DNA of 64,000 bases, taken from Roseivirga sp. (GTDB lineage: Bacteria; Bacteroidota; Bacteroidia; Cytophagales; Cyclobacteriaceae). Position 1 is the stretch's first letter. Every line of letters starts with the position of its first letter. The notes under the pieces were generated by a model that did not search any database, was not told where the DNA came from, and saw only the letters and a program-made list of their open reading frames with translations. The stretch lies in NCBI GenBank assembly GCA_029262895.1, contig JAJCYM010000081.1:62001-126000 (forward strand), in the 5' to 3' direction. The position numbers and the translations under genes were made by a program. This document shows positions 15,347 through 43,799 of the stretch, in pieces.

Positions 15347-18034
15347 TCACTCATTTCTTAGCAGCTTTACAGGGTTTTGAACAGCGGCATGTCGTATTTG
15401 CCAGGTAATGGTAGCTGCGCCAACTACAAGGACGATTAGAAAACCTGAAAGCAATTCGATTATGCCAGTTTCCGGACGGTAATTGAATTGGGCAAGAATT
15501 TCAGTATCAACAATATACTTGGTGATCGGGACCGCGATTAGTGCAGCAAGAATGATCATGAATACAAAACTCTTTGACAGCATGACCATCAAATTTGAAA
15601 AACCAGCACCAAGGACTTTTCTAATGCTAATTTCCTTCATTTTACTCTCAGTATTGTAAACGGCCATGCCTAACAAGCCAAGCATAGAAATGGAGATGGC
15701 AAGAAAAGCGAGGAAAGAAACGAGCGTAATTGTAGTCTTCTGAGATCGGTAAGTTTCTGTAATTTGATCGTCATAGAAATCAGCATCGAAAGGATGTTTC
15801 GAGTCAAATTGGACATACCCTGCTTCCAGTTTTTGTATTAAACCGATCAAGTCCTCCGTCCTGAATTTAACACCAATCTGCCCGTTAGTAAACCCTGGCA
15901 TCCCCTGAATAAATCCAAAATTCTTCTCCTTCATAATGTCACTGTTGTGCCCTGCATTAAGTGATGTATTGACAAAGTTTTTGACTACACCGATTACCTG
16001 GTATTTACCTCGCGCATATCCATAAATATTAATAAACTTGCCAATGGCTTCTGAAGGAGTTCCTAGTTGAAGGGATTCTAAAGTATGCTCATTTAAGATA
16101 ACTTGGTTTCCTAAACTCTTTCCCTGCAAAGGACTCTCGAAACCTCTACCAGCCATTAGTTCAAAATCATGCATGGAGAGGTAATTAAGATCAATACTAT
16201 TCCAGAAAATTCGTCCCTTGTACTCTTTGTCTTCGCTTTCAACTCTGGCTAGTTCTGCGCCTCCTGTGGCCATAGTCATCATGGAGATAGATGTTTCCTG
16301 AACTTCAGGAATTCCTTGATAAAACGTTTCCAGTTTTTGAGCATAGTCACCCTTAACTTTCACATTGATGATGTGTTCTGAATTAAAGCCCATATCGTAA
16401 TTCACCGCAAACTGGTATTGTTTGTTAACCAGCGTAGCAGTCATAATCAATCCAATCGATAAGGAGAATTGCAAAACGGTAAGGATACGTCTCAGGCTTA
16501 TACCTGCTAAGGGTTTTACCAAACCTGCGTCTTTCAGCACATTGCTGGTTTTCAGCTTTGATAAAAACAGGGCCGGTAAAAAACCCGCGATAAGTCCAAG
16601 CACCGTGGCGAAAACCAAGAAGTAGCCCAATTGAAGTAAACCAATGCTCAATGAAAACATATCATGCCCGCTGGATGCTGGATTGGGGAGCCTCAGAAAT
16701 GCTGGTTTAATCAGGAGAAACAGACCAATTGCCAACATTAATGCAATGAGAGAAAGTAAGAGTGATTCTGTCATGAATTGCGCAAAAACCTGATGGCTTT
16801 TGGCGCCACTTACCTTGCGAATCCCCACTTCTTTGGACCTTCTCAAAGCCCTGGCCAGTGAAAGGTTTGTATAGTTAAAGCATGCCGAAAGCAGCACGAC
16901 AACTGTTAACCCGAACATAATGATCAATTGCTTTCGAGAAAACCTCGGGCCTACACGATTGGCCAGCTTGTCACTTGTAACAAAATCGTCCATAGGCTGT
17001 AAGACATAGGTCACCGCATGTTCTTGCGTGGAATTGTATTCAGTTAGAATTTCAGCCATGCTGTCCTCAACCAAAACAGGTTTCGTTTGCTCGTCCAGAA
17101 GAACATAAACATGATTGCTTTTCCAAAAATGGGCTGCTTTATATTCTTTATGCCAGCCTGTACCGGAGGTGGAAGGTTGATCATAGGCTTCCATAGAAAC
17201 CAACACCTCGAATTGGATATGGGAATTGAATGGTAGGTCTGCCATAACTCCAGTAACCATTCCTAAAATATTTCGGGTTTGCCAATCACCGGTACTTTCC
17301 ATTTCAAGTTGTTTCCCCATAGGGTCCTGATCACCAAAAAGTTTTAGGGCGGTGCTTTCTGTCAATACTATGCCATTGGGCTCAAGTAATGCGGTAGCGG
17401 GATTACCTTTTAACAAATTGAAAGAGAATACATCGAAAAAAGTTTCAGTGGAGTAGAAGCCTTTGATATTGATGGCACCTGCATCGGTTTTCAGATCTAC
17501 ATCAACCCCACTACGCATAATCAGTACTTTTTCTATACCGGGTGTTTGCTCTTCCATCTCTAGCCCAATGAAATGAGAGGCCATAGGAATATCAATCTCC
17601 TGACCGTACATGAACTTATTACCGGCAACTCGATAAATACGGTCATGCTGTGTGTGCATAGTATCAAAAGAATTCAACTCAGTAATGATCAGGATCATCA
17701 AGATTCCCACTGCCATACTGATCGCCAAGCCCATAACATTGATGAATGAAAAAAGCGCATTCTTCTGAACGCTTCTGACTGATGTTTTGAAGTAGTTTTT
17801 AAACATTCCGTATTGATTTAGTTTTTGAGTTCCTCCTAAAGATTTTACTGACCAGGGTTTGATAAAATTGAAAACATGAAACCAATAGAACACCTTTCTT
17901 TGCCATCTCGACTTCGCTTTGAGTTCATCATGGTATTCATAGAGATCTCCAATGATCTCTTCTATAAATTCTTCCCGGCAAATTCGTCTGAGTAAGAATT
18001 CCGAGAACTTGGGTATTTGGTATGGCGATTTCAC
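15347..18034 (-). CDS. Large FtsX/MacB-type ABC transporter permease with prefix domain (module 1)
   Basis: 895 residues starting at GTG 18034, whose GTGA overlaps the padR stop, implying translational coupling. Residues 1-75 form the cytosolic permease-prefix domain (CREEFIEEIIGDLYEYHDEL). Then come a first transmembrane helix at about 95-115, a MacB-type periplasmic domain, an FtsX domain with SKEVGIRKVSGA, a second periplasmic domain and a second FtsX domain with EISIRKVLGA, giving about eight helices. This two-FtsX layout is that of MacB-like permeases that couple ATP hydrolysis to periplasmic work or efflux, but no ATPase gene is present in the window. Cargo is unknown. Controlled together with padR at 18031. 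Confidence 0.9.
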   Translation of the reverse strand: MKSPYQIPKFSEFLLRRICREEFIEEIIGDLYEYHDELKAKSRWQRKVFYWFHVFNFIKPWSVKSLGGTQKLNQYGMFKNYFKTSVRSVQKNALFSFINVMGLAISMAVGILMILIITELNSFDTMHTQHDRIYRVAGNKFMYGQEIDIPMASHFIGLEMEEQTPGIEKVLIMRSGVDVDLKTDAGAINIKGFYSTETFFDVFSFNLLKGNPATALLEPNGIVLTESTALKLFGDQDPMGKQLEMESTGDWQTRNILGMVTGVMADLPFNSHIQFEVLVSMEAYDQPSTSGTGWHKEYKAAHFWKSNHVYVLLDEQTKPVLVEDSMAEILTEYNSTQEHAVTYVLQPMDDFVTSDKLANRVGPRFSRKQLIIMFGLTVVVLLSACFNYTNLSLARALRRSKEVGIRKVSGAKSHQVFAQFMTESLLLSLIALMLAIGLFLLIKPAFLRLPNPASSGHDMFSLSIGLLQLGYFLVFATVLGLIAGFLPALFLSKLKTSNVLKDAGLVKPLAGISLRRILTVLQFSLSIGLIMTATLVNKQYQFAVNYDMGFNSEHIINVKVKGDYAQKLETFYQGIPEVQETSISMMTMATGGAELARVESEDKEYKGRIFWNSIDLNYLSMHDFELMAGRGFESPLQGKSLGNQVILNEHTLESLQLGTPSEAIGKFINIYGYARGKYQVIGVVKNFVNTSLNAGHNSDIMKEKNFGFIQGMPGFTNGQIGVKFRTEDLIGLIQKLEAGYVQFDSKHPFDADFYDDQITETYRSQKTTITLVSFLAFLAISISMLGLLGMAVYNTESKMKEISIRKVLGAGFSNLMVMLSKSFVFMIILAALIAVPITKYIVDTEILAQFNYRPETGIIELLSGFLIVLVVGAATITWQIRHAAVQNPVKLLRNE

Positions 18035-18357
18035 TTGATGGCTAATTCAGGTATTTGCATCCAAAGGTTGACTTTAACATCTCTGCTTTTTTGGAGCACC
18101 TTGTTACCCGAAGCAGTGGTGCTAAAGATTCGTTTGCTTCTCCCCCCTCTAACCTCTGTGGCGCCACTGTAATTTGATTCAACAAATCCCTTTTTCTCCA
18201 GGCGATTGAGTGTGCCGTGCACCGCCCCTATAGTTACAGTTCTATTGGCTTGCTCTTTCAAGGTTCTGCGGATCGCCAAGCCGTAGGCGTCTTCTTTAAG
18301 CATTACAATCAGAAGTAAGGTTAGCTCCTCTAACTCTCCTAAATATTCCTTTTCCAT
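18031..18357 (-). CDS. PadR-family transcriptional regulator (module 1)
   Basis: 108 residues, a winged-helix PadR protein: helix-turn-helix around DAYGLAIRRTLKEQ and AVHGTLNRLEKKGFVES, then a basic wing with RGGRSKRIFSTTASG. The family represses its own operon and releases DNA on binding a ligand or stress signal. It is closest in sequence to the PadR at 43408 and less like the classical one at 28966. The start overlaps nothing upstream and faces two near-palindromic sites at 18364-18380 and 18406-18422. The stop overlaps the permease start by 4 bp. Confidence 0.92.
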   Translation of the reverse strand: MEKEYLGELEELTLLLIVMLKEDAYGLAIRRTLKEQANRTVTIGAVHGTLNRLEKKGFVESNYSGATEVRGGRSKRIFSTTASGNKVLQKSRDVKVNLWMQIPELAIK

Positions 18358-18363
18358 AGATAT

Positions 18364-18380
18364 GTTCTATTTAATAGAAC
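18364..18380. promoter_or_regulatory. Putative PadR operator, proximal site (module 1)
   Basis: GTTCTATTTAATAGAAC has 7-bp inverted arms around TTA and begins 7 bp upstream of the padR ATG. The same 16-bp sequence recurs 42 bp further upstream. Function is inferred from symmetry, duplication and position. Confidence 0.7.
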
Positions 18381-18405
18381 TAATATACGGAAGGAATTTT
18401 TATTT

Positions 18406-18422
18406 GTTCTATTTAATAGAAG
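18406..18422. promoter_or_regulatory. Putative PadR operator, distal site (module 1)
   Basis: GTTCTATTTAATAGAAG repeats the proximal site with only the last base changed. Centre-to-centre distance is 42 bp, four helical turns, placing both sites on the same DNA face. Confidence 0.7.
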
Positions 18423-18862: not shown

Positions 18863-19717
18863 CTAGACGAACTCCCCTTCTATCGGAAGCACAACGATCT
18901 TTCTATCATTCAATGTGAACTGATCACCGTTAGCAAGTATATGAGTAGTCAGATTGGACATTGACATTGGAGTGCCGTCTTTGAGCTCTTCATGGGCATT
19001 ATGTGTCAAATGACTGGCATCCATAATGATCACCATACCAGATCCAATGATCTTGAATTCATTGCAGTTTTTAATCACTATGCCTGTATCTTCAGCTAAG
19101 CCTATTCCAAGAATCTTGGGGTGAATAGCCACAGCTTCTGCCAATCGGCCGAACCGTCCTCTTTTAATAAAATGAGTATCAATGACAAGGTTTGGGATAA
19201 GACCGAGCCCTTTGCTCATGGTTACTGCTCCCTTTAACAAGGCTTCTTTACTGCTTCCACCAGCTATCATCTCATCGGCCATCATCATGGCTCCTGCACT
19301 TGTTCCTGCAATGACAAAGACCTCATTTTTGAATTTCTTATGAAGAAGTTCGTGTAAAGAGGTTTGTCCAATAATGGATGCAATTCTGGATTGATCACCA
19401 CCAGAGAACATCACACAATTCGCATCGGCAAAATCCCCGAGTAGTTCATCTGTTTCACATTGACTAGATGCTGTAATGTTAGCAATGCTTACATTCTTAC
19501 ATCCCAGTTTATCAAAGGCATCAAGGTATATTTCTCCGACTTCATCAGGAATGCTAGAAGCGGTAGGAACGACAATGATCTTGGCATTGACTCCCCCACT
19601 TTCATTGACAACATGCCATAAAATTCCCTCTGATATAAACTCCAATCCAGCAATCTCGCTCTCTCCCTTGTCTTCATTCCCCCCGATTGGTATCAATATG
19701 CCTTTCGAATTGTTCAT
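18863..19717 (-). CDS. cphB: Cyanophycinase
   Basis: 284 residues from the ATG at 19717; a TTG at 19753 in the same frame would add twelve basic residues not seen in the family. Peptidase family S51: N-terminal IPIGGNEDKGE, central FSGGDQSRI, and nucleophile Ser140 in AGTSAGAMMM, then ALLKGAVTMSKGLGLIPN and DTHFIKRGRFGRL, both typical of cyanophycinases. It is an exopeptidase that cuts cyanophycin (multi-L-arginyl-poly-L-aspartate) to beta-Asp-Arg dipeptides. No signal peptide, so it is the intracellular form. It is divergent from cphA with 109 bp between start codons, so the two are probably regulated from one shared region. Confidence 0.95.
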   Translation of the reverse strand: MNNSKGILIPIGGNEDKGESEIAGLEFISEGILWHVVNESGGVNAKIIVVPTASSIPDEVGEIYLDAFDKLGCKNVSIANITASSQCETDELLGDFADANCVMFSGGDQSRIASIIGQTSLHELLHKKFKNEVFVIAGTSAGAMMMADEMIAGGSSKEALLKGAVTMSKGLGLIPNLVIDTHFIKRGRFGRLAEAVAIHPKILGIGLAEDTGIVIKNCNEFKIIGSGMVIIMDASHLTHNAHEELKDGTPMSMSNLTTHILANGDQFTLNDRKIVVLPIEGEFV

Positions 19718-19826
19718 TTCTTCTCTCGCTAAATTTCTTCTCTTGCGATGCAAAAATGATTATAAATTCTTGTTAAAAAATCTATATTTATGCTAAACTA
19801 CTTACCTACCCTTAATTTTTTTACCC
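19718..19826. promoter_or_regulatory. Shared cphB/cphA promoter region
   Basis: 109-bp AT-rich divergent intergenic region. TATATTTA at about 19789-19796 resembles the Bacteroidota -7 element (TAnnTTTG) for cphA except for the last base. No clear operator palindrome was found. Confidence 0.4.
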
Positions 19827-22442
19827 ATGGAGATTCGAGAAATAAGAGCATTAAGAGGTCCGAACTATTGGTCGGCAAAACGTCACAAGCTGATAGTCAT
19901 GGTTTTAGACCTTCAGGAAATGGAACAAAGACCCACCAACAAGATTGATGGATTTTTGGAACGACTTGAAGCGATGTTTCCCACGATGTATGAACACCGC
20001 TGTTCGGTAGGTACGGCCGGTGGTTTTTTCGAACGTGTAAAGGAAGGCACCTGGATGGGGCATGTCATAGAGCATATAGCCCTTGAGTTACAGACTTTGG
20101 CCGGAATGGATGTAGGCTATGGTAGGACTCGTGGTTATGGTGAAGAAGGCGTGTATAACGTAGTTTTTACCTATATCGAAGCTGAGGTAGGTAAATACAC
20201 GGCCCGAGCCTCCGTGAGAATAGCCGAGGCACTTATCGATGGAAAGGATTATGACCTGGAAGAAGACATTCAGGAAATGCGGGAAATTCGCGAACGGGTT
20301 CGTTTAGGTCCTAGTACAGGTTCAATCATTGCAGAGGCTGAAAGTAGAGGGATTCCATGGATTCGTTTGAATAAGTATTCCCTATGCCAATTGGGGTACG
20401 GAGTCAATCAAAAGAAAGTGCAAGCCACTGTCGCTAGTACAACAAGTAATATTGGGGTAGAGATTGCCGGTGATAAAGAAGACACCAAGTTCTTATTAGA
20501 ACAGGCTGAAGTGCCTGTGCCTAAGGGAGAAATAGTAAGATCAGAAGAAGGACTGAAGGATGCCGTAGATTATATAGGATATCCCGTAGTTGTAAAACCC
20601 ATTAGCGGAAATCACGGACGTGGTATCACCACAGATGTAAGGAATTTAGATGATGCTTTGGAAGCCTTTCAAGCGGCAAAGAAAGTATCGAGATCAGTCA
20701 TCATTGAGCGATTTATTGTAGGAGACGATTATCGACTTTTGGTGATTAACTATAAGCTAGTCGCTGCGGCCAAGCGTACTCCGGCTCACGTGGTTGGCGA
20801 TGGGAAATCGACAGTTCAAGAGCTTATTGATCAGGTGAACCTTGATCCAAAAAGAGGATATGGGCATGAAAAAGTGCTCACAATGATTGAAGTTAATGAC
20901 CTGACTCTGGGTATTTTAAAGGAAGCTGGTAAAACTCTTGATTCAGTCTTGGATAAAGAGGAAGTTTTGATTCTTAAGGATACTGCCAACCTGAGCACGG
21001 GTGGAACGGCCGTAGACGTTACAGACATTGTCCACCCCTACAACATCTTTATGGCAGAGCGGATTGCCAAGATAGTAGACCTTGATATTTGTGGTATTGA
21101 TATTATGACCACAGATATGAGTCAACCTCTCCCCGACACTGGTGGAGCGGTTATCGAGGTAAATGCTGGCCCGGGTTTCCGAATGCACTTAGACCCTGCT
21201 GAAGGATTACCAAGGAACGTGGCAGGTCACGTCATTGATATGCTCTATCCTCCTGGAGCGACCTCCAGAATCCCAATCGTGGCCGTAGCTGGAACCAATG
21301 GGAAAACAACTACAACCAGACTCATTGCACACATTGCTCGAATGAAGGGCTTCAAAGTAGGCTATACAACTACTGATGGCGTGTACATTCAAAACAGGCT
21401 ATTAATGACTGGTGACTGTACAGGACCAGCCAGTGCAGAGTTCGTTCTGAAAGACCCAACAGTCGATTTTGCTGTTTTAGAATCTGCACGTGGCGGTTTG
21501 TTAAGAGCGGGCCTCGGATTTAAGAATTGTGATATCGGTATTGTGACCAACGTAGCAGCCGATCATTTAGGCTTGAAAGGCATTCATACCATTGAGCAGC
21601 TGGCCAGAGTTAAAGGCGTCATTCCTCAAACCGTCTTTCCAGATGGTCATGCCATACTCAATGCTGATGATGATTTGGTTTACGAAATGCGAAACGAGAT
21701 CGATTGTAATTTGGCTTTATTCTCTTTGGATGAAACCAACCCTCGTATTGTCAAGCACATGAAAGCCGGAGGGCTTTCTGCGGTGTATGAAAACGGATAC
21801 ATCACCATTTGTAAAGGAGAATGGAAAATGAGAGTAACCAAAGCCACCCAAGTGCCATTAACGTTTGAAGCCAAGGCGCTGTTTATGATTCAAAATGTGT
21901 TACCGGCAGTGCTGACCGGGTACCTTCGCGGCTTTTCGATTGAGGACATAAAAGTGGCCATTGAGTCCTTTATTCCATCACCTGCCCAGACACCAGGTCG
22001 TTTGAACATGTTCAGGTTCAAAGAATTTAACGTGTTGCTTGATTATGCCCATAATCCTGCCGGATTGCGAGCTTTGCATCAAATGATCGACAAAATGGAT
22101 GGCTCGCCTAAGGTGGGTATGATTGCCGGAATTGGTGACCGAAGGTCAGAGGATAATCATGAGATAGGAATGGTGGCCGCTGAGATGTTCGATGAAATAA
22201 TTATTCGTCAAGACAAAAATTTGCGTGGAAAATCTGACAAGGAAATTATTGATATGATTCACAGTGGAATCAAATCTGTGAAGGAAGACATGAAGGTGAC
22301 TATTATTCCTTCTGAGAGAGAAGCCATTACCTATGCCTTAACCAATGCTGAAAAAGGATCTTTACTCGTCCTCTGCAGCGATGTTGTGCCCGATGCCTTG
22401 AACCTGGTGATGGACTTTAAGGAGAAGGAGGCTCAGGCTTAG
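19827..22442 (+). CDS. cphA: Cyanophycin synthetase (CphA1 type)
   Basis: 871 residues, the full length of two-active-site CphA1. Residues 1-160 are the N-terminal domain starting EIREIRALRGPNYWS. About 215-480 is an ATP-grasp domain (VVVKPISGNHGRG, EVNAGPGFRMHLDP) that adds aspartate. From about 485 is a Mur-ligase-like domain with the P-loop GTNGKTTTT at residue 489 and LDYAHNPAG, adding arginine. Both nucleotide sites appear intact, which argues against the dipeptide-using CphA2 type. The product is the cytosolic nitrogen reserve cyanophycin. The divergent cphB is its hydrolase. Confidence 0.96.
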   Translation: MEIREIRALRGPNYWSAKRHKLIVMVLDLQEMEQRPTNKIDGFLERLEAMFPTMYEHRCSVGTAGGFFERVKEGTWMGHVIEHIALELQTLAGMDVGYGRTRGYGEEGVYNVVFTYIEAEVGKYTARASVRIAEALIDGKDYDLEEDIQEMREIRERVRLGPSTGSIIAEAESRGIPWIRLNKYSLCQLGYGVNQKKVQATVASTTSNIGVEIAGDKEDTKFLLEQAEVPVPKGEIVRSEEGLKDAVDYIGYPVVVKPISGNHGRGITTDVRNLDDALEAFQAAKKVSRSVIIERFIVGDDYRLLVINYKLVAAAKRTPAHVVGDGKSTVQELIDQVNLDPKRGYGHEKVLTMIEVNDLTLGILKEAGKTLDSVLDKEEVLILKDTANLSTGGTAVDVTDIVHPYNIFMAERIAKIVDLDICGIDIMTTDMSQPLPDTGGAVIEVNAGPGFRMHLDPAEGLPRNVAGHVIDMLYPPGATSRIPIVAVAGTNGKTTTTRLIAHIARMKGFKVGYTTTDGVYIQNRLLMTGDCTGPASAEFVLKDPTVDFAVLESARGGLLRAGLGFKNCDIGIVTNVAADHLGLKGIHTIEQLARVKGVIPQTVFPDGHAILNADDDLVYEMRNEIDCNLALFSLDETNPRIVKHMKAGGLSAVYENGYITICKGEWKMRVTKATQVPLTFEAKALFMIQNVLPAVLTGYLRGFSIEDIKVAIESFIPSPAQTPGRLNMFRFKEFNVLLDYAHNPAGLRALHQMIDKMDGSPKVGMIAGIGDRRSEDNHEIGMVAAEMFDEIIIRQDKNLRGKSDKEIIDMIHSGIKSVKEDMKVTIIPSEREAITYALTNAEKGSLLVLCSDVVPDALNLVMDFKEKEAQA

Positions 22443-24341: not shown

Positions 24342-25094
24342 CTAGCCAAGTATTTTCTTGAGCTGATCTGAGAAGTTTCGGCTGCATTTGATTTGCTCGC
24401 CTGACTCTAGTGTAATCATTAAATCACTGTGCGAGGAGGATTCAAAATGTGTAATGGCGTTGATATTCACGAGATGTGATTTGTGGATTCTGAGGATGTC
24501 TCTGCTGTTTAAGGTCGATTCCAATTCACTAAGTGTGGCTCTCTTCATGTAGAACCTTTCTTTTGTGAAAATTCTCACATAATTACCTTCAGACTTCGCC
24601 CAAATAATTTCATCGACTTGGAGAGGATAAACCTTGCCCAAGTGGGTGGCCGAAACGAATTTAGATTTTAAGGACTCCTTGTACTTATTGAATAATTCTT
24701 GCCTTTTTGGATCCGTAAACTCTTCGTTCTCTACCCTCTCTTTACAACGTGCCAGCGCTAAGTCAAATCGATCTGCTTTCATAGGCTTAAGAAGATAGTC
24801 CACCGCGTTCATGTCAAAGGCGGCTATGGCATGCTCATCGTAAGCAGTAATGAAAATTATTTGTGGAAGGTTGATTTCAGCGTGTTTATAAAGCTCATCT
24901 AACATTTCAAGACCCGTCATTTCAGGCATTTGAATATCCAGAAAGATCAAGTCAGGTTCTTGGGCAATGATTATTGCCAGCGCGGCCTTCGCATTGCTAC
25001 AATAGGCAAGAACCTCAACATCGCTGTGGCTTTGAAGCAACTGTCTCACTTTCTCCCTGGAGAGCCTCTCATCATCGACTACAACTGCTCTCAT
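24342..25094 (-). CDS. LytTR-family response regulator (pair 1)
   Basis: 250 residues. An N-terminal receiver domain has the acidic pair DD7-8, phospho-acceptor Asp53 in FLDIQMPEM and the conserved Lys in LLKPMK near residue 105. The LytTR DNA-binding domain covers about 150-248 (VDEIIWAKSEGNYVRIFT, HKSHLVNINAI). Its ATG overlaps the stop of the kinase gene just upstream by 4 bp, so the two form a translationally coupled two-component pair. The lack of other linked genes downstream leaves its regulon unknown; the adjacent PadR-permease unit on the same strand is a candidate. Confidence 0.93.
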   Translation of the reverse strand: MRAVVVDDERLSREKVRQLLQSHSDVEVLAYCSNAKAALAIIIAQEPDLIFLDIQMPEMTGLEMLDELYKHAEINLPQIIFITAYDEHAIAAFDMNAVDYLLKPMKADRFDLALARCKERVENEEFTDPKRQELFNKYKESLKSKFVSATHLGKVYPLQVDEIIWAKSEGNYVRIFTKERFYMKRATLSELESTLNSRDILRIHKSHLVNINAITHFESSSHSDLMITLESGEQIKCSRNFSDQLKKILG

Positions 25095-26161
25095 TTTATG
25101 GGAATGTCAATTTCGATAGTTAGGCCGCCCTTGTCATTATTGCTCAGGTTTAAACCATGTTTTTCATGATAAAGTTGATCCAAGCGCTGAATCAAACTCT
25201 TCAGACCTGTGCCATATTGAACCTCTTCGGGTAGACCAACACCAGTGTCACTTAATGTGATGTTCAGCCTGCCCTCCTGTTTTTGAATATTGAGCGTGAT
25301 GATCACGTCCATTTGCCGTTTTTCAACGACATGTTTAAAGATATTTTCAACTAAAGGTTGTAACAAGAGGAATGGAACTTGAAGGTTGAAAACGTCTGGA
25401 TCAATATTTTTCACAAATTCGAATCTCTTCTCAAAGCGAACCTCGCAGATGTCCAGATAGTAAGATAGCGCATCCAGCTCCTCTCGCACTGTTACTTCGT
25501 GATGAGTGCCCTTGGTAAGCACATACCTCAGGAAATCGCTTAGGCCATGTAAGGTTTTGTCTGCCGCCTGCACATCCGTATACATCAGTGTAGAAATGCC
25601 CTGCATCGTATTAAACAAGAAGTGAGGTTGCAACTGCAGGTTCATGACGTTCAGTTTAGCCTCGGCTAATTGACTTCTCAGTCTTTCGCTTTCCAGCCTT
25701 CTTTCTTTGCTATTTATCTGGTTTCTGATAATGGCAATCCCTGTAATCAACAACCAGAAAGGCAAGGTGATAATAAACAGGTTGCCACTGATTAATCGGG
25801 CTTTCATGGGTTGCTGAAGTTCCATCTGAAATGCATAAGTAAAATACAGGAAGGCCACCAAATAGCTAATGAGCAAAACAACTACAATGTGCAATGTAAA
25901 GCCATAGACCCTTTTCCAGCCTTCAAACCTTATAATCCCCGAAAGCCATATAAAGAGTGGTGTTGAGATGGCGCAGCAAGCCCAGGTAAAAGGCATAATA
26001 CTCATCAGGGTAGATGTGCGGACGTTTTCATTGTTTCTTCGAACAAGCACATCTGCGTAGTTCAGTCCAAAGGCAATGGCTAAACATACACCAATGAGGA
26101 TCAACGCTGGAATTAAAAAAGAGGATCGTTTTTTTTCTTCCTTTCCAACTTGCAACTGCAT
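25091..26161 (-). CDS. LytS-type membrane sensor histidine kinase (pair 1)
   Basis: 356 residues from the ATG at 26161; the longer frame needs TTG at 26191 and would only add ten residues. Four transmembrane helices at about 15-35, 52-75, 85-110 and 127-147 form the sensor, with no large periplasmic domain. The HisKA_7TM-type His_kinase domain follows with His180 in LQPHFLFNT, then an ATPase domain with the N-box LLQPLVENIFKHV and G-box DTGVGLPE. Co-transcribed with the LytTR regulator. Confidence 0.93.
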   Translation of the reverse strand: MQLQVGKEEKKRSSFLIPALILIGVCLAIAFGLNYADVLVRRNNENVRTSTLMSIMPFTWACCAISTPLFIWLSGIIRFEGWKRVYGFTLHIVVVLLISYLVAFLYFTYAFQMELQQPMKARLISGNLFIITLPFWLLITGIAIIRNQINSKERRLESERLRSQLAEAKLNVMNLQLQPHFLFNTMQGISTLMYTDVQAADKTLHGLSDFLRYVLTKGTHHEVTVREELDALSYYLDICEVRFEKRFEFVKNIDPDVFNLQVPFLLLQPLVENIFKHVVEKRQMDVIITLNIQKQEGRLNITLSDTGVGLPEEVQYGTGLKSLIQRLDQLYHEKHGLNLSNNDKGGLTIEIDIPIK

Positions 26162-26316
26162 GGTGTCTTGAGCTAATCTGATTTGATCCAAAGATCAATT
26201 TAGAGGCAATGCAATGATTGTCCAAATTTATGGTGTTGAAAAGGATTTTGGAGGTGCTGAAGAGTATGTCCATCACGTTTGACGATGTATATCTCATCCA
26301 GCCCTTCCCTTCTTTC

Positions 26317-26356: not shown

Positions 26357-28960
26357 TTACTCATTCCTCAATGCCCGAACCGGGTTGTTAGTTGATGCTC
26401 TGATGGATTGATAACTCACAGTAAGTAAGGTGATGACCAGGGCCGAAAAGGCCGACAGCACAAACATGCCGATCGAGAGTTCAATATGATAGGCAAAACC
26501 ATTCAGCCATTGATTCATAGCATACCAACCCAAAGGCATAGAGATAACAAGTGATATCAGAATGAGTTTAGTGAAGTCTCCTGTTAGCAATACAAACAAA
26601 TTACTGACTGAGGCGCCTAATACTTTACGTATGCCAATTTCCCTCATTCGTTGTTCCATCGCATAAGAAACCAAGCCAAAGAGACCCAGACAAGAGACAA
26701 TAATGGCTAGTATGGCAAAGTAGGTTGAAAGGGTGCTGGTACGCTGCTCAGCTTCATACAACTCCTGAAAATCCTCTTCAAGAAAATCGTAGCTGAATTC
26801 TCTCTCGGGAAAAATCTTATTCCATGAGTTTTCCAATGTTGCCACAATTGCATCTTTTTGACTGGGTTCATACTTCACATATACCCTATTCATTCGATCA
26901 AATTTGAAAATGACCATAGGCTCGATTTCCGAATGGATGGATTTGAAATTAAAGTCTTCGATTACCCCAACAATTCTCTGCTCACCGAAGGCAGTAATCG
27001 TCTGACCAACAGGATTTTCTAGTCCCATCATGGCTTTGGCCTTTTCGTTGATCATCACTGTAGCCGTATCAGCCTCCAGGAATGACCTTCCCTCCAATAT
27101 ATTCATTTCCATAGTGGCTGGATAATGCTCATCCATTCCCATATAATGGAAGAGAAATGTTTCGTCAGCATTTTGGCCCGGCCAGATAAAGCCCGAAGAA
27201 CTACTAAGCACATAGGCAGGGTGATGACTGGAACGCCCCACATTAATAATGCCCGGCTGGCCTCGTAATTCGTTCGTTAAAAGTTTTACCTGACTTGAAG
27301 GAGCTGAAGTGTAGATGATATTCTCCTTGTTATAGCCTAGATCAACATTCTGAATAAAACTCAATTGTTGATAGATGGCTATTGTGCCAATGACCAGAAC
27401 TATAGAAATAATAAACTGAAAGATCACTAAGGCTTTCCTGAGCCCGGCACCACGTTTGAGCGTAATAGATTGCGCATTCAAGGTATCTATGGGTTTGGTG
27501 GAGCTGAGGAATAAGGCCGGATAAGAGCCCGCAATTAGGCCTGTAGCGATGGCCACCAATAAAATACCCAATGCCAATCTGAATCCGGATTCGGCTGTGA
27601 GTAATTCTTGTATTACGAAATCCTTATTAGCGAGTTGATTAAAAGAAGGAAGCACCAAAGCAACGAGCAGTACTGACAGCAATACAGCAGTCATGGTAAG
27701 CAACACTGATTCACTTAAAAACTGAAAGATCAATTGACTTCTCTGGGCTCCGATCGTCTTCCTTAGCCCAACTTCCTTGGCTCTTTTGGCCGAACGTGCT
27801 GTCGACAAGTTCATAAAATTGATGCAGGAAATGAGCAGAATGAAAACTGCGACAATCGAAAAAATCTGTACGTATATCATTTGACTTTTCCGAGATACCT
27901 CAACTACAAAATCCACATCTCCGAGATATATGTCAGTTATGGGCTGTAAATAAATATCAGTAATTGAGCCTTCTGAATTTTTCTTTATTTGATTGATGAC
28001 CTTCTTGTTTACTTCGGTCAGATCTGCTTGCTCGCTCAATTCTACATAAGTATAAATACCATTACTTCTCCAATTCGTAGCCCTGCCCGGGTTTTCTGAA
28101 ATGGACTTTTCAAAATTCGTCAGATAAGTAAAATAGAGATGTGAGTTTTTGGGGACATTTTCCATCACCGCACTAATTACAAAATCTTCTCCGCTCAATT
28201 TTATTGATTTACCAATCGGGTCTTCATCGGGAAAATACTTATCTGATAAATCTTTCGTCAGGATTAATGTGTTGTGTTTCTCCTTGAAGTCGGCTGCAGT
28301 TCCTTTTATGATAGGGAAAGAGAACATTTCAAAAAACTGTTCATCGACCATATATCCATTAGATTCAGCAATTTTCAGATCTCCCAATTGGAAATTATAG
28401 TTCTGCCCCGAAGCCCTTGTAAAGTGTACAATTTCAGGATACTCCTCATAAAGGGATGGGCCTAAGGCATCTGGAGTCACCGCCACAGGAAAAACCGGCT
28501 GTCCGTCATAGTATTGATTTTCTACTACTCTATAGAGCAGTTCCTTTTTCTCATGAAACTGGTCGAAACCAAGTTCATCACTAACAAATAATCCAATCAT
28601 GAATACAGTGGACAAGCCCACAGTTAATCCAAGCACATTGACAAATGTGTAGAACTTGTGCTTTATAAAATTTCTGACCGCGATTTTGAAATAGTTTTTG
28701 AGCATAGTGGTATGAATAAAAAAGTTGTTGTTTGATTTTGGTCTTTGACTCCAGTAGGCCTCTTTCGCCATTGGTTTTATTTCCCCGAACTCCTTGACAG
28801 CCAGGTCAAAAGCCTGTTGCTGCGTATAGCCTTGTGTAAGCAGATCATCTATATGGTCGCGAAGGTGCAGTTCCATTTCTCGAATGGCACCATGATTAAA
28901 AGCACGGTGTTTCTGAAATAGACGCAGCCAGGATTTTATGGATTTTTCAAGATCAAACAC
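26357..28960 (-). CDS. Large FtsX/MacB-type ABC transporter permease with prefix domain (module 2)
   Basis: 867 residues starting at GTG 28960, five bases after the padR stop; the N-terminus FDLEKSIKSWL matches the family start. Residues 1-80 are a prefix domain (IREMELHLRDHIDDLL, AVKEFGE). Then TM1 at about 105-130, a MacB periplasmic domain, FtsX with AKEVGLRKTIGAQ, a second periplasmic domain and FtsX with EIGIRKVLGASVSNL. No ATPase gene lies nearby. It is bracketed by two LytS/LytTR pairs on the same strand, so its expression could be under both PadR and two-component control. Confidence 0.9.
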   Translation of the reverse strand: MFDLEKSIKSWLRLFQKHRAFNHGAIREMELHLRDHIDDLLTQGYTQQQAFDLAVKEFGEIKPMAKEAYWSQRPKSNNNFFIHTTMLKNYFKIAVRNFIKHKFYTFVNVLGLTVGLSTVFMIGLFVSDELGFDQFHEKKELLYRVVENQYYDGQPVFPVAVTPDALGPSLYEEYPEIVHFTRASGQNYNFQLGDLKIAESNGYMVDEQFFEMFSFPIIKGTAADFKEKHNTLILTKDLSDKYFPDEDPIGKSIKLSGEDFVISAVMENVPKNSHLYFTYLTNFEKSISENPGRATNWRSNGIYTYVELSEQADLTEVNKKVINQIKKNSEGSITDIYLQPITDIYLGDVDFVVEVSRKSQMIYVQIFSIVAVFILLISCINFMNLSTARSAKRAKEVGLRKTIGAQRSQLIFQFLSESVLLTMTAVLLSVLLVALVLPSFNQLANKDFVIQELLTAESGFRLALGILLVAIATGLIAGSYPALFLSSTKPIDTLNAQSITLKRGAGLRKALVIFQFIISIVLVIGTIAIYQQLSFIQNVDLGYNKENIIYTSAPSSQVKLLTNELRGQPGIINVGRSSHHPAYVLSSSSGFIWPGQNADETFLFHYMGMDEHYPATMEMNILEGRSFLEADTATVMINEKAKAMMGLENPVGQTITAFGEQRIVGVIEDFNFKSIHSEIEPMVIFKFDRMNRVYVKYEPSQKDAIVATLENSWNKIFPEREFSYDFLEEDFQELYEAEQRTSTLSTYFAILAIIVSCLGLFGLVSYAMEQRMREIGIRKVLGASVSNLFVLLTGDFTKLILISLVISMPLGWYAMNQWLNGFAYHIELSIGMFVLSAFSALVITLLTVSYQSIRASTNNPVRALRNE

Positions 28961-28965: not shown

Positions 28966-29301
28966 TTATATTGTCGGTTTAACATCCCAAAGTGCGTCAA
29001 GCAAGGAATTTACCTGAAGCCATTGTTCTCTTTCTACCATTAGCGCCTCTTGACCAGCTGGCGTAATTTGGTAGTATTTTCTTGGCCTGGAATTCTCGGC
29101 CATGATCCATTCCGACTTGATGAGTTCATCTTTTTCCAGGCGATGCAATACCGGGTACAGCATGCCATCGGACCATTCCATTTTTCCATCGGACAGTTCT
29201 TTGATTTTCTTGATGATCAAATAACCATAGCTATTCCCCTGCTTGAGAATGCCTAGGATAATTGGCTTTGTAGTTGCTGCAGATAGGTTTTTAGATATCA
29301 T
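28966..29301 (-). CDS. PadR-family transcriptional regulator (module 2, classical type)
   Basis: 111 residues. Classical PadR: winged helix with NSYGYLIIKKI, DGMLYPVLHRLEKDELI and the wing SRPRKYYQITPAGQEAL. It lacks the RGGRxK motif found in the wings of the two other PadRs in the window. A 33-bp dyad covers 29313-29345, 12 bp upstream of its ATG, and is its probable operator. The permease starts five bases after its stop. Confidence 0.93.
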   Translation of the reverse strand: MISKNLSAATTKPIILGILKQGNSYGYLIIKKIKELSDGKMEWSDGMLYPVLHRLEKDELIKSEWIMAENSRPRKYYQITPAGQEALMVEREQWLQVNSLLDALWDVKPTI

Positions 29302-29312
29302 GACTCGCTATA

Positions 29313-29345
29313 TACTTTGGCGTTCTATGTATAGACGGCAAAGTA
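29313..29345. promoter_or_regulatory. Putative PadR operator (module 2)
   Basis: TACTTTGGCGTTCTAT, GT, then ATAGACGGCAAAGTA form an almost perfect dyad with one bulge and one mismatch. It sits 12 bp upstream of the padR ATG and differs completely in sequence from the operators of modules 1 and 3. Confidence 0.65.
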
Positions 29346-29579: not shown

Positions 29580-30350
29580 TCACTGCGTATTGTCCAACAT
29601 TTGCCTCAGCCGAGTAGACCGTTCCTGGCTCAAATGAATTTCCTCATGGTAATTCGGAGAAACTTCAATTTGTAGTTGACCGGGTTTGGTAGGGATAAGC
29701 TTTTTAATGGAGTTGACATTTACCAGAAACTGCCGGTTAAGTCTGATAAACATTTGGTTATCCAAAATCTCCTGAAGCTGATTCAATGAGTAGTCTAAAA
29801 CATAAGACACATCATCAAAGGTCTTGGCAAAAACGAAATCAGCGCGATAAAAGTAAGCGATCTCCTCACTTTTCACCGGAGTCATATGATTACCCGTCTT
29901 TAATAAAAACCGTTCCTTAAAGCTTGATTGCTTGTTTTGCATCAAATCAATGGCGTCCATGGTTTTAAGAAAGACCTCTTCCGAATGAACACGCTTTGTC
30001 CTTGTGTATTTATCCAGCGCCTGGGACAGATCATCTTTTGTAATGGGTTTCAACAGGTAATCGATTCCCGTGGTTTTAAAGGCCTTGATGGCATATTGAT
30101 CGTAGGCAGTGACAAAAATGATAGGACAACTGATCTCAATTTCTTCCAGGATATCAAAGGAAAGGCCATCGGACAAATGGATATCCATAAAGATCAGATC
30201 CGGTTGCTTGTTGTTTTTCAACCATTCTATGGCATGCATCACCGTGCCGATTCTTTCTTTTACCAGGTACTCTCCCACTACTTCATCAAGGAGGTTTTCA
30301 AGGTGATTTTGAGCGCTGGTTTCATCTTCAATAATCAGTACCCTATTCAT
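29580..30350 (-). CDS. LytTR-family response regulator (pair 2)
   Basis: 256 residues. Receiver domain with acidic residues ED8-9, phospho-acceptor Asp56 in FMDIHLSDG and Lys in LLKPITKD. The LytTR domain runs from about 145 to 252 (EIAYFYRADFVFAKTFDD, RLNRQFLVNVNSIKKL). The start overlaps the 3' end of the kinase gene by 8 bp. About 35-40% of residues look alike to pair 1 by eye, so the two pairs are related but not a recent duplication. Confidence 0.92.
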   Translation of the reverse strand: MNRVLIIEDETSAQNHLENLLDEVVGEYLVKERIGTVMHAIEWLKNNKQPDLIFMDIHLSDGLSFDILEEIEISCPIIFVTAYDQYAIKAFKTTGIDYLLKPITKDDLSQALDKYTRTKRVHSEEVFLKTMDAIDLMQNKQSSFKERFLLKTGNHMTPVKSEEIAYFYRADFVFAKTFDDVSYVLDYSLNQLQEILDNQMFIRLNRQFLVNVNSIKKLIPTKPGQLQIEVSPNYHEEIHLSQERSTRLRQMLDNTQ

Positions 30351-31419
30351 GATCAGCAGTGTTAATTAATGGTAATGACACAGTGAATTGTTGTTGGCTC
30401 TCGGCAATCACCACAGGCCGTTCCGTTAGGTATTGATAACGCTTTTTAATATTCGAAAGACCGGTTTGATCAGTTACCTCAGGTCGCTTTAGGTTTACAT
30501 TGTTGGAGACAATAATGTAGTTATTCTCTACTTCAAATGAGATGTTCAATGGACTGCCCTCATCAATCCTGTTGTGTTTGATGGCGTTTTCTATCAATTG
30601 CTGTAAGACTAATGGAGGTACACTTTTCTGTTGCAAATCTTCGGCATCGATACTGTCCTCAACCAATAAAAAGTTGTAATAGCGTTGTTGCATTATGGCC
30701 AAATATTGCTTGGCCAAATTGTGTTCTTCTGATACAGCAATCAATGATTTGTCATTGTTTTGAAGGATATAACGATAAATGGTCGAGATATTTTTAAGAA
30801 AATCCTTTGCCATCTCTGAGTTTTCATCGATCAGATAGTAAAGCGTATTAAAGCTATTAAACATGAAATGTGGATCGAGCTGGTTCTTTAGAATAGCAAG
30901 GTTGGCTTTTGCGATCTCTTGCTGAAACTGCTCATTCTCAAGGTTCGATTGGTAGTGATCGTTCTTCCAATTCACCGCCATCTGGACTAAGGTAAATATC
31001 ACAGAAATGGTGAGCCCCATTAACACCGACATAGCCATGTGACCAATCATAGGTGTTTCACTCCCATAACTCCAATGATCTATCCATTTGAAAATGTAGA
31101 AGAGTACAAAATAGACCGAAGTACCAATTAACACACTGCCAATAAAGACGAGGAATAGACGTACAGATTCGTTTTTCGTCTTAATTCGGTTGAAGAGATA
31201 GGTCTGGGCTTTAATGATGATTTCGAAGATGACATAGTAAACGGCAAGCAACAAAAACCCTATCCACGCAAAGCCCGGAGGTTCTCTAAAACGAGAAGCA
31301 ATAGAAATTGTGCCAAACATCAACATCCCAACGGCTACAGCAATGATAATCTTTACAGGGCGCGAAAGCTTAAGTGGAGAAGTAGTCATTTTTAATTTCG
31401 AATGATCAAAAGTAGCCAT
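30343..31419 (-). CDS. LytS-type membrane sensor histidine kinase (pair 2)
   Basis: 358 residues from the ATG at 31419; an ATG ten codons later (31389) is an alternative. Four transmembrane helices at about 22-42, 52-70, 88-110 and 128-148 form the input region. The kinase core has His184 in LDPHFMFNSFNTLYYL and the N-box LQQLIENAIKHN; the nucleotide-binding end is short, as in this subfamily. Operon with the LytTR regulator. Confidence 0.91.
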   Translation of the reverse strand: MATFDHSKLKMTTSPLKLSRPVKIIIAVAVGMLMFGTISIASRFREPPGFAWIGFLLLAVYYVIFEIIIKAQTYLFNRIKTKNESVRLFLVFIGSVLIGTSVYFVLFYIFKWIDHWSYGSETPMIGHMAMSVLMGLTISVIFTLVQMAVNWKNDHYQSNLENEQFQQEIAKANLAILKNQLDPHFMFNSFNTLYYLIDENSEMAKDFLKNISTIYRYILQNNDKSLIAVSEEHNLAKQYLAIMQQRYYNFLLVEDSIDAEDLQQKSVPPLVLQQLIENAIKHNRIDEGSPLNISFEVENNYIIVSNNVNLKRPEVTDQTGLSNIKKRYQYLTERPVVIAESQQQFTVSLPLINTADHE

Positions 31420-38968: not shown

Positions 38969-38983
38969 CTCCCTTATCTTCGA

Positions 38984-39046: not shown

Positions 39047-39049
39047 TCC

Positions 39050-40825: not shown

Positions 40826-43408
40826 TCATTCATCCCTTAGGCATAAAGCTGGGTTTACCCTGGCTGCTTTAAAGATTTGTAAACTTACCGTAAACCAGGC
40901 AATCAATAGTCCTAAGGCACCTGCTCCGGCAAAGGTCCACCATTCCAGTGTGATGCGGTATTCAAAATTGTCTAACCAATTTTTGGAAATAAAGAAAGCA
41001 GTGGGAAGGGCGATGATAATGGCCAGAATCACTGTTTGAGTAAAGTCGCGAGAAAGCAAGCGCACAATGCTCAATAAGCCTGATCCCAAAATTTTCCGAA
41101 TGCCGATCTCCTTCATTCTTCGCTCTGCGGTAAAGGCCGCCAGCCCAAACAACCCCAGACATGAAATAAGCACGGCAAAGCCCGCAAAGTACCTGGAGAG
41201 TTTAGCCACACGGGTTTCCGCCTCATACAGTGTCTGAAATTCCTGATCCAGAAATTTGTAATCTGCGAAGTAACCCGGGTTGAACTCGGCATAGAATGCC
41301 TCCAAGCGATCCAGGGTTTGCCGCAGTCCACCGGACTGTACTCTAATCACCATGGTTGACGACCATTGAGAGTCCAAAAGCAGGAACATAGGCCCCATAC
41401 GCTCATGTAGAGACTTAAAATGAAAATCCTTAATCACGCCAACTATGCGCACGTCATTGCCCCAAAGCTTGGCGCTTTTGCCTACGGGATCATCAAATCC
41501 CATAATTTCCGCAGCGGTTTCGTTTAAAATAATTTGAGATTCTTCTTGTGCAAACTCCCGCGAGAAACTCCTTCCGGCCACCAATTCCAGGCCAAGCGTT
41601 TCCACGAAATCATAATGCACTAAAAATCTACTAAAGCCCGTATTTCCATCTATTTGTCCCTCCCATTGAAAGTCTCCTGCTCCGGGGGCATTAAAGATGT
41701 CGTTGGTAATGGCCGATCCGTTGATAATCCCGGGGATGTTTCTGATGCCGTCCAGAAAGGCGTCCATCCCTTCCGCTGCCTTGCCCTCCCGCTTCATTAG
41801 CAACACATTGTCCTTTTCATAGCCGAGGTTTTTGTTCTGAACAAATTCCATTTGCTGGTAAACCACCAAGACCACAACAATCAAAATCACTGAGGATGCG
41901 AATTGAAACACCACCAGGCCCTTTCTTACCCACAACTCTCCAATGGAGCCTTTGAGCTGCCCCTTTAATACCGCAATGGCATTGAACCCTGACAGGTAAA
42001 GTGCCGGATAGCTGCCCGAAACCAGGCCGGTAAACAGGGTAATGGACAGGGCTGTGATAACAAGGGTTGGTTCATAATGGAACAGGATGTCTTTGCCCGT
42101 AATCACATTAAACTGAGGAAGAAATAGTACCACCAGCCCAATGGCCACCAGCAGGGCAATAAAGGCCATCAAAATTGACTCTCCGAGATATTGAGTAATC
42201 AAGGCGCTTCTGCTCGCTCCTACGGCTTTCTTGACTCCTACCTCTTTTAATCTTCTGGATGCCCTGGCAGTAGAAAGGTTCATAAAATTCACACAGGAGA
42301 TCACCAAAATAAACAAGGCAATAATTGAGAATAGTCTTACATATTCTATGCGGCCTCCGGCCTGCACACCATTTTCGAATTGACCATATAGATAATTGTC
42401 AGCATAGGCATGCAGAAAGTAACTCGCATCCGATTCTTCCACTTTGTCGTCCATAAAGTTGGCCAGCTTAGCATTCACGGCATCCGGGCTTGTGCCATCC
42501 TGAAGCAATACATAGGTGACCGCGTTAGGGCTTTTCCAGTCGGCACCAAAGGCATACTTGTATAGGCTAAAGGGAAGCACAAAGTCAAACTGATCTGTGG
42601 AGTTGGCTGGCGGGTCTTTAAAAATACCGGTAATCTTGGCGGCATTTTGAAGGTTGATATCCTTCCACACTATGGTTTGGCCTACCACGTTTTCCGTGCG
42701 ATTAAACAGCCTAAGGGCCAGACGCTCCGAAATGACCACTGAACTGATGTCCGTTAAAACTTCTTCGGGATTGCCCTGAAGAAGCGCATAAGAGAACATC
42801 TTGAAATAATTCTCGTCCACAAACTTTCCGATCCCTGAGCCCTTTCTCTCCTCGTTTACGAATAGGTCATAGGACATTTGCCAATCGGGATCGGTGCCTC
42901 CTGCCGTCATTTCCACTTCAGGCAATTCTTCGAGCAGGGCATCCGGCAACAAGGCTGATGTGCCATTCCAGGTGACTATTCCATCAGGGCGCACATTGTT
43001 GGTCATCACCTGATATAACCTGTCATTTTTGACATGGAACTTGTCCACATTCAATTCATCATTTACCCATAGATAAATTAATAAGGTGCAGGCCAAACCA
43101 GTTGATAAGCCTATGAGGTTAATCAGAAAAGCAGACTTGTACTTTCTGAAATTTCGAAAAGCCAAAAGCAGCGTGTGTCGAATGATATTCATGATATTTG
43201 AGTTTTTGAAGCTGTTGATTGATTTGAGATTTCTCAGCCTGAATGATTTTACCACATCCCAGGTGAATCTCCGTCTTGCTGTTTTAGGAGACGCTGCAAA
43301 GCGCTTTTCGAAGAGTTCTATAAGGTCACCCTCAATCTCATCAAGATAGTCCTCCCTGCAGAACCACCTCAGAAATTTCAGTGCCCATTTTGACGGCTGT
43401 GAATCCAT
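40826..43408 (-). CDS. Large FtsX/MacB-type ABC transporter permease with prefix domain (module 3)
   Basis: 860 residues; its ATG (43408) shares one base with the padR stop (TAATG). Residues 1-75 form the prefix domain (WFCREDYLDEIEGDLIELFEKR), as in module 1. Then TM1 at about 95-115, the MacB periplasmic domain, FtsX with LKEVGVKKAVGAS, a second periplasmic domain, and FtsX with MKEIGIRKILGSGLLSI. It is noticeably richer in G+C than the AT-rich HNH gene next to it. No ATPase gene is nearby. Transcribed with padR. Confidence 0.9.
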   Translation of the reverse strand: MDSQPSKWALKFLRWFCREDYLDEIEGDLIELFEKRFAASPKTARRRFTWDVVKSFRLRNLKSINSFKNSNIMNIIRHTLLLAFRNFRKYKSAFLINLIGLSTGLACTLLIYLWVNDELNVDKFHVKNDRLYQVMTNNVRPDGIVTWNGTSALLPDALLEELPEVEMTAGGTDPDWQMSYDLFVNEERKGSGIGKFVDENYFKMFSYALLQGNPEEVLTDISSVVISERLALRLFNRTENVVGQTIVWKDINLQNAAKITGIFKDPPANSTDQFDFVLPFSLYKYAFGADWKSPNAVTYVLLQDGTSPDAVNAKLANFMDDKVEESDASYFLHAYADNYLYGQFENGVQAGGRIEYVRLFSIIALFILVISCVNFMNLSTARASRRLKEVGVKKAVGASRSALITQYLGESILMAFIALLVAIGLVVLFLPQFNVITGKDILFHYEPTLVITALSITLFTGLVSGSYPALYLSGFNAIAVLKGQLKGSIGELWVRKGLVVFQFASSVILIVVVLVVYQQMEFVQNKNLGYEKDNVLLMKREGKAAEGMDAFLDGIRNIPGIINGSAITNDIFNAPGAGDFQWEGQIDGNTGFSRFLVHYDFVETLGLELVAGRSFSREFAQEESQIILNETAAEIMGFDDPVGKSAKLWGNDVRIVGVIKDFHFKSLHERMGPMFLLLDSQWSSTMVIRVQSGGLRQTLDRLEAFYAEFNPGYFADYKFLDQEFQTLYEAETRVAKLSRYFAGFAVLISCLGLFGLAAFTAERRMKEIGIRKILGSGLLSIVRLLSRDFTQTVILAIIIALPTAFFISKNWLDNFEYRITLEWWTFAGAGALGLLIAWFTVSLQIFKAARVNPALCLRDE

Positions 43409-43734
43409 TAGCTAAAAGAGATTTCAGGGATTTTCTGATAAAGACTGGTGCGCACGGCATACTGACTATCGAGCCTTTTCTTACCCAGGGCTGTAATCAC
43501 ATAGAATTTCTTTCTGCGTCCACCACGCTGCTTGGTGATGCCACCTTCACGGGATTTAACAAAGCCCTTGTCCTCAAGTCGTTTTAGACTGACATGGATG
43601 CCGCTGATATTAACTTTCTTGCCAAGATGCTCCTCCAGGTTTTCCAGGATGACCACTCCGTAAGCCTCGTCATGCAGGGCGGCCACCATAAGGAGTACCA
43701 GTTCTTCAAACTCCCCTAGCGATTGTTCCTTCAT
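43408..43734 (-). CDS. PadR-family transcriptional regulator (module 3)
   Basis: 108 residues, the same length as the module 1 PadR and of the same subtype (LGEFEELVLLMVAALHDEAYG against LGELEELTLLLIVMLKEDAYG in part; wing with RGGRRKKFYVITALG). The recognition helix region (ISGIHVSLKRLEDKGF) differs from module 1 (IGAVHGTLNRLEKKGF), which fits different operator sequences. Two inverted sites with 42-bp centre spacing lie upstream (43744-43757 and 43786-43799). Confidence 0.93.
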   Translation of the reverse strand: MKEQSLGEFEELVLLMVAALHDEAYGVVILENLEEHLGKKVNISGIHVSLKRLEDKGFVKSREGGITKQRGGRRKKFYVITALGKKRLDSQYAVRTSLYQKIPEISFS

Positions 43735-43743
43735 GTTGAAATT

Positions 43744-43757
43744 TATTTACTTAACAA
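43744..43757. promoter_or_regulatory. Putative PadR operator, proximal site (module 3)
   Basis: TATTTACTTAACAA, 10 bp upstream of the padR ATG. The distal site is its exact reverse complement. Confidence 0.65.
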
Positions 43758-43785
43758 ACATGAATGTAATAGATTAGTTTCATAA

Positions 43786-43799
43786 TTGTTAAGTAAATA
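43786..43799. promoter_or_regulatory. Putative PadR operator, distal site (module 3)
   Basis: TTGTTAAGTAAATA is the perfect reverse complement of the proximal site, 42 bp centre to centre. ACATGAATGT, a PadR-like ATGT/ACAT pair, lies between the two at about 43758-43767. Confidence 0.65.

Follow-up and report, generated by a model that had tools for sequence, protein, structure and literature searches.

A 64,000-nucleotide stretch of a 5.79-Mb Roseivirga genome (assembly GCA_029262895.1, contig JAJCYM010000081.1; C81:62001-126000 in our own numbering, and hereafter the window) carries three modules in which a gene for a PadR-family regulator precedes a gene for a large permease with two FtsX domains. 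We consider it very probable that these modules are self-contained autoregulated switches, in which a PadR dimer would sit on paired sites in its own promoter until a ligand releases it, so that the permease would be made and would function with an ATPase provided in trans. The argument is built on predicted operators, compared within and between dozens of paralogous promoters and set against the sequence of the adjoining PadR.

A regulator-permease pair in many copies

A first-pass annotation of the window had noted three padR genes, each placed before a two-FtsX permease with an overlap or a 5-bp gap, and the coordinates as well as the PF03551 (PadR) cut-off of 27 bits bear this out. All six genes lie on the reverse strand. 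In module 1, padR (18031..18357; 108 aa, PadR subfamily 2 type, 37.7 bits) is followed by a permease gene (15347..18034; 895 aa) whose start overlaps the end of padR over 4 bp; in module 3, padR (43408..43734; 108 aa, 40 bits) overlaps the permease gene (40826..43408; 860 aa) by 1 bp; and in module 2, a padR of another subtype (28966..29301; 111 aa, 86.5 bits) is separated by 5 bp from its permease gene (26357..28960; 867 aa). Every one of the permeases has two MacB_PCD and two FtsX domains. The PadRs of modules 1 and 3 are of one subtype, being 42% identical, and their permeases are prefix-2-type: that of module 3 is a perm_prefix_2 protein (NF038404, 47.6 bits, above the cut-off of 35) and that of module 1 has a prefix-2-like N-terminus, at 28.7 bits under the same cut-off. 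The module 2 permease carries perm_prefix_1 (NF038403, 35.4 bits, above the cut-off of 30).

The suggestion that the system exists in multiple copies also holds. PF03551 has 69 matches in the genome, modules 1-3 being three of these, and there are about sixty padR-permease copies, of which the window holds three. Fifty-nine padRs are of subtype 2, and the next gene has a permease-like start in 58 of them (36 of which trained the profile); beyond this genome, the same permease N-terminus profile is matched after 81 of the 82 subtype-2 padRs in the same-genus set and after 73 of the 80 in the other set. Two related subtype-2 padRs, L021 and L102, are followed by a short open reading frame (215 and 214 aa) in place of the permease, and L021 is also without good operator sites. 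(L, G and C numbers are our handles for loci, genomes and contigs.) A PadR fragment in a 35-aa open frame, L066 (G000:C21:6670), possibly a pseudogene or an assembly break, was excluded from all operator work. The PadR family is widespread, with at least 557 encoded relatives in genome_contigs. Judged from a small genome sample, its expansion looks genus-level, because six same-genus genomes have 42, 39, 22, 16, 58 and 16 PF03551 matches versus one each in three genomes of other families in the same order.

The composition of the comparison sets bears on what follows. The same-genus set (n = 82) consists of 80 regions from among the matches listed plus L094 and L095, and omits some listed matches, among them near-duplicates of G004/G006. 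The other set (n = 80) holds the best 80 of the at least 557 genome_contigs relatives, ranked by similarity to the module 3 PadR, and therefore favours the group to which module 3 belongs. Two loci sit in both sets (L143 = L238, L145 = L242), also within the covariation and spacing counts below. Our own loci L001-L009 and loci L070-L093 were left out of motif work. Clustered at 60% identity, the PadRs form 44 groups.

Predicted paired operators upstream of padR

Of 68 padR upstream regions, 35 contain a direct repeat that exceeds the 95% level in dinucleotide shuffles, where about 3.4 would be expected. Expectation-maximization (EM) applied to the 59 subtype-2 promoters yields a 25-bp site, approximately ATTWGTTYTACAWTTAGGAAnnAAA, with 93 sites, 93% of which have C at position 10 (C10). 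In held-out loci, two sites are found at a threshold of 8 in 43/82 same-genus and 48/80 other promoters, compared with 0.24% and 0% in the respective shuffles and none in gene-body controls; when module 3's group and two duplicate loci are taken out, 38/77 same-genus loci have two sites. The pair score exceeds the 99% null level in 44/59 own, 62/82 same-genus and 59/80 other loci. Predicted paired sites of one locus agree more with each other than do sites of different loci. Since the similarity of both sites enters the pair score, a within-locus comparison built on that score is inflated, and we therefore used motif-only calls: in our own genome, similarity is 19.3/25 within a locus versus 13.2 between loci, and in 25 of 33 cases no other site is more similar than the partner at the same locus.

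The first-pass annotation had placed a different dyad upstream of each padR in the window, and all three are there, in the places it assigned. In module 1, the predicted proximal operator, GTTCTATTTAATAGAAC, lies at 18364..18380 (centre 18372, 15 bp from the padR start) and the predicted distal operator, a one-mismatch copy, at 18406..18422 (centre 18414). In module 3, the 14-mer TATTTACTTAACAA at 43744-43757 recurs inverted at 43786-43799. Set against the 59-promoter motif, and against what is conserved in 41 loci of the module 3 group, each 14-mer belongs to a longer site, 25-26 bp in length: a predicted proximal operator at 43745..43769 (forward strand, with the motif on the strand opposite to padR) and a predicted distal operator at 43774..43798 (reverse strand), inverted and about 28 bp apart.

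This predicted double operator is conserved across Bacteroidota classes, from Cytophagia to Saprospiria. It is present in 41 of the 47 loci of the module 3 group (module 3 and a sister from this genome are counted in the 47), and the pair-bearing loci include Saprospirales (Flavilitoribacter) and Cytophagales (Roseivirga) records, along with Flavihumibacter and Chitinophaga, which we take to be Chitinophagales. Pairs were found with the outer halves of the sites as the search term, and the inner parts, unused in the search, are conserved too (TGAAAcTAAT in the distal and GTaAA..TAAT in the proximal site). The pair is missing or degenerate in L186, L197, L199, L203, L211 and L214. L211 and L214, relatives of the module 3 PadR, have no operator pair immediately upstream; L213, with a similar PadR, retains one.

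Spacing between sites is characteristic of each group

In modules 1 and 3 alike, the two sites had been described as lying 42 bp apart, centre to centre. Measured in that way they do, and in module 1 the same 42 bp recurs in four of four members of its group. The figure for module 3 is not the same measure as that for module 1, however, because each 14-mer covers just the outer part of a site and 42 bp therefore joins outer halves rather than full sites. One might nonetheless suppose that modules 1 and 3 share an exact 42-bp cooperative layout and that the module 3 14-mer is the whole site. In support of this geometry, the outer-half spacing is 41 or 42 bp in 38 of the 41 pair-bearing loci (41 bp in 15, 42 bp in 23, and 44, 48 and 51 bp once each), and 42-44 bp is a real mode in the family at large, with 9 of 44 group medians. 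Yet the inner parts of the module 3 sites are conserved and align with the full motif, which puts the centres about 28 bp apart, and other groups sit at quite different distances. We therefore regard this geometry as unlikely, and have rejected an exact 42-bp spacing as the shared architecture.

What the upstream alignments reveal, where a search for dyads 42 bp apart had been recommended, is a number of group-specific modes, with 42 bp no general rule. Over the 44 PadR groups, spacing medians cluster at 25-30, 32-34, 39-45, 54 and about 64-66 bp, with isolated medians of 37, 49.5, 51 and 71 bp, once each. Where a group has at least three members, the spacing is within 2 bp of the group median in 119 of 132 loci (500 shuffles: mean 53, maximum 74). 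The distance between predicted sites is thus a characteristic of each orthologous group, and there is no family constant of 42 bp. That spacings are phased with the DNA helix is only an idea: taken across the full set of 44 groups, spacings are not phased (p = 0.96 versus uniform, 0.19 versus jitter), and at distances above 30 bp, a cut set post hoc, 31 groups give R = 0.53 (p = 0.003 and 0.0005).

Predicted operator sequence follows the recognition helix and wing

An AlphaFold2 model of the module 3 PadR (pLDDT 89) is a winged-helix protein with helices at residues 8-23, 26-37, 43-56 and 82-100 and a wing at 59-80. Its size (108 aa) and single C-terminal helix are those of PadR subfamily 2. 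This layout is close to that of LftR, in which H3 spans 44-57 and both Y48A and deletion of the wing abolish binding (PMC6457526).

A scan with a sliding 8-residue window, which needs no choice of boundary, compared the similarity of PadR in each window with that of the operators after correction for the remainder of the protein; windows 42-49 and 68-75 rank highest. Among 63 representatives, window 42-49 comes first with a partial r of 0.34, compared with a maximum of 0.24 over 300 permutations; among 44 representatives, windows 68-75 and 42-49 are at the top. Within 42-49 lie three of the top 10 covarying columns by median z and five by mean z, and the recognition helix taken as 41-52, a choice that predates the structure model although not the covariation list, is enriched at p = 0.026. 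The sliding scan supports the view that the predicted operator sequence tracks the recognition helix (42-49) and wing (68-75) of the adjoining PadR.

Individual residues and bases also go together. C7 accompanies G44 in 15/19 groups and S44 in 4/23; G4 accompanies R73 in 18/28 groups and other residues at position 73 in 0/16; T7 is found in 11/12 groups with Y51 and in 5/32 without it. Since the best such rule has a Bonferroni value of 0.064 over 10,800 correlated tests and so does not pass, we treat single rules as leads. Residue 47, which as His47 aligns with the signature Tyr of 5dym, is His in 37, Gln in four, Tyr in two and Val in one of the 44 group representatives; it is also among the PadR positions most strongly associated with operator sequence.

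How private are the operators?

Four operators, those of modules 1 and 3, L052 and L057, were searched for genome-wide. All four were found at their own promoter, one of them also at a sister module, and they are nearly absent elsewhere. At up to two mismatches, the module 1 17-mer has only its own two sites in 5.79 Mb (its backward-read control has three matches). At up to one mismatch, the module 3 site occurs at its own two positions and twice before the sister padR L042 (contig C52), with three strays in the genome at three mismatches; the L052 and L057 operators are confined likewise, with one 2-mismatch stray for L057.

Compared at 14/16 core identity, 44 own loci fall into 31 groups, namely 28 singletons and groups of 11, 3 and 2 loci; at 13/16 a group of 28 forms, and at 15/16 there are 43 groups. 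It is plausible that many modules are insulated from one another, but not all, because the 28 singletons stand beside multi-locus groups. The first-pass annotation had envisaged one architecture with orthogonal specificities. A double-operator layout with copy-specific sequences does extend over dozens of paralogues, whereas orthogonality, as far as site similarity can tell, is partial.

Might one or a few shared regulators, rather than the adjoining PadR, bind the common motif at all promoters, making the whole set a single regulon? The sites do have a common scaffold, with its near-ubiquitous C10, and the 11 own loci with similar sites would fit such an arrangement. However, variable positions are alike in both sites of a locus, the four searched operators are nearly private, and operator similarity follows the recognition helix and wing of the adjoining PadR beyond overall relatedness, all of which makes a shared regulator quite improbable. 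That the dyads are recent duplications or chance repeats without function has next to no chance of being right: promoters are about 70% A+T and AT-rich DNA does give short repeats, but shuffles that keep dinucleotides yield two sites in only 0-0.24% of cases, and the pair of module 3 is conserved as far apart as Cytophagia and Saprospiria.

If, instead, each PadR acts on its own promoter, the picture can be extended to some sixty insulated one-promoter circuits, a genus-level development in which private double operators would be specified by a residue-base code (G44/C7, S44 or Y51/T7, R73/G4), each circuit would sense a different compound and switch its own permease, and spacing would be tuned in helical steps (about 32-34, 42-44, 54 and 64-66 bp) next to an abutting class at 25-30 bp. 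This extension is tentative, and we would sooner expect parts of it to fail than the whole to hold.

A proposed mechanism and the case against it

TAnnTTTG, which we take to be the Bacteroidota -7 element, occurs at -15.5 (15 matches) or -4.5 (31 matches) from the centre of the proximal site; on the reverse strand it is scattered, with at most five matches at any one position. As the element lies near or over the proximal site, bound PadR should block initiation. In a model of the module 3 permease (pLDDT 85), an N-terminal helical prefix is followed by two halves, each with helices of transmembrane length and a periplasmic domain. Two short helices, 387-396 and 765-773, hold near-invariant residues (E389, G391, K394 and E767, R771) and presumably resemble the ATPase-coupling helix. 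Matches to DarD-like ATPases at E <=1e-30 number 11 in the genome, and by coordinates none of these lies within a padR operon, so that, at this threshold, the operons do not have the ATPase gene of a complete ABC transporter. An ATPase supplied in trans is likely for this reason.

Put together, a subfamily-2 PadR dimer would occupy its own promoter at two pseudo-palindromic operators of 25 bp, close to the -7 element or across it, perhaps cooperatively, and would repress the padR-permease operon. A ligand, probably bound between the subunits of the dimer as it is in LmrR, would release it, whereupon the two-halved FtsX/MacB permease would be made and, with its ATPase in trans, might serve in transport. 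After duplication, changes in the recognition helix (42-49) and the wing (around residue 73) would have been matched by changes in both sites, which is why many copies would own an operator.

Several results weigh against this reading. Fifteen of 59 own promoters have no significant pair; outside module 3's group, only 13/38 loci of the distant set show two sites; and two called pairs (L017, L141) match at just 10 of 25 positions. With 44 representatives, the best partial r in the window scan (0.26) exceeds the 95% level (0.18) but falls short of the permutation maximum (0.29). Covariation is not enriched over the whole of alpha3 (42-56; p = 0.12), only over its N-terminal half, and the p of 0.0002 for segment 42-49 has a boundary picked after the profile was seen. 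To this may be added the failure of the best residue-base rule at Bonferroni correction and the 11 own loci that fall into one group of similar sites at 14/16. Finally, a perfect TAnnTTTG at the fixed places is present in only 44/165 loci and 15/44 groups, 18 of those loci being in module 3's group.

Module 2 and neighbouring genes

For module 2, a single 33-bp dyad had been described, and it is present at 29313..29345; its distal arm (about 29339-29345), however, is by eye absent from both orthologues seen, L071 and L079, upstream of which an apparently conserved operator core corresponds to 29308..29336. Other padRs of the module 2 subtype (L002, L004, L005) have repeats of their own, 22-25 bp apart. 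Two pairs of LytTR response regulator and histidine kinase genes flank module 2 on the same strand (24342-26191 and 29580-31419). Directly downstream of the module 1 permease lies a gene for an ankyrin-repeat and PD40 protein (13819-15282), and at 18863-22442 a Peptidase S51 gene is divergent from a cyanophycin-synthetase-like gene, probably a cyanophycin storage locus.

Relation to known systems

The closest regulators are those of the LmrR or PadR subfamily 2 (LmrR of Lactococcus, bcPadR1 of B. cereus, Listeria LftR), winged-helix proteins of about 110 aa that likewise have one C-terminal helix only. Foldseek matches include LmrR, PadR structures from Listeria and the operator-bound B. subtilis PadR (5x11). 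In the excerpts used here, LmrR is described as controlling a transporter gene and its own gene (PMC4534193, PMC5428041), with two dimers on one operator (PMC5428041) and a central tryptophan that binds drugs (PMC3506622, PMC4534193). An aromatic residue (W, Y or F) at position 99 in 156 of 165 PadRs is a candidate counterpart of that tryptophan. Unlike the LmrR subfamily, the system described here has dozens of paralogues per genome, many with a double operator of their own. Its shared motif also differs from the ATGT-N8-10-ACAT inverted repeat that PMC3506622 gives, and at the place of the signature alpha3 tyrosine (Y48 of LftR, PMC6457526) 37 of the 44 groups have His and two have Tyr.

A duplicated permease without its own ATPase, adjoining a PadR, is also the arrangement of ADOP/padR_acidobact (TIGR03434/TIGR03433), models for what we take to be sets of paralogous PadR-permease pairs in Acidobacteria. 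TIGR03434 matches each of the 30 permeases scanned at E <=0.001, and so does NF038404. The TIGR03434 scores of modules 1-3 (250.8, 297.9 and 287.6 bits) are far under the cut-off of 622.3, which none of 80 genome matches reached (67 of 261 candidates scored), and the PadRs of modules 1-3 score 31.5, 85.5 and 34.8 bits with TIGR03433, under its cut-off of 101.8. A second class of ADOP-like permeases, of about 800 aa and several in tandem, is found on contigs C30, C93 and C5 and at C81:4899-9415 of G000; C30, C93 and C5 have no padR match. Our literature search found no paper on operators of ADOP/padR_acidobact systems.

On the side of the permease, the likeness is to type VII ABC transporters, E. 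coli YbbAP and MacB/LolCDE: the best Foldseek matches of the model are 9ge6 (YbbAP, TM-score to query 0.42) and 5gko (0.35), and one chain that combines two FtsX halves with two periplasmic domains is a further common trait. Here, by contrast, there is no ATPase in the operon, a prefix domain stands at the N-terminus, and copies are very many.

Protein-DNA covariation has reportedly been described for other regulator families, for example MerR, with Prot-DNA-Korr (PMC5045206). In both cases repressor and operator appear to coevolve among relatives; the difference is that dozens of specificities would here reside in one genome, behind the same gene layout. This makes for a natural set of candidate repressor-operator pairs in which one can test how paralogous repressors stay apart, and the 44 PadR groups, with candidate matched operators drawn from related genomes, suffice for proposing residue-base rules in a subfamily whose recognition of operators was described in 2019 as poorly understood (PMC6457526). 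Many uncharacterised permeases are indicated as well, the inducers of which could be found by reporter assays. A search of open-licence PMC papers found none on this padR-permease operator system; PadR is mentioned in one paper about phage shock proteins (PMC11237479). Set beside LmrR, ADOP, YbbAP and the MerR family, the parts are known already; what is new is the scale and the private double operators predicted here.

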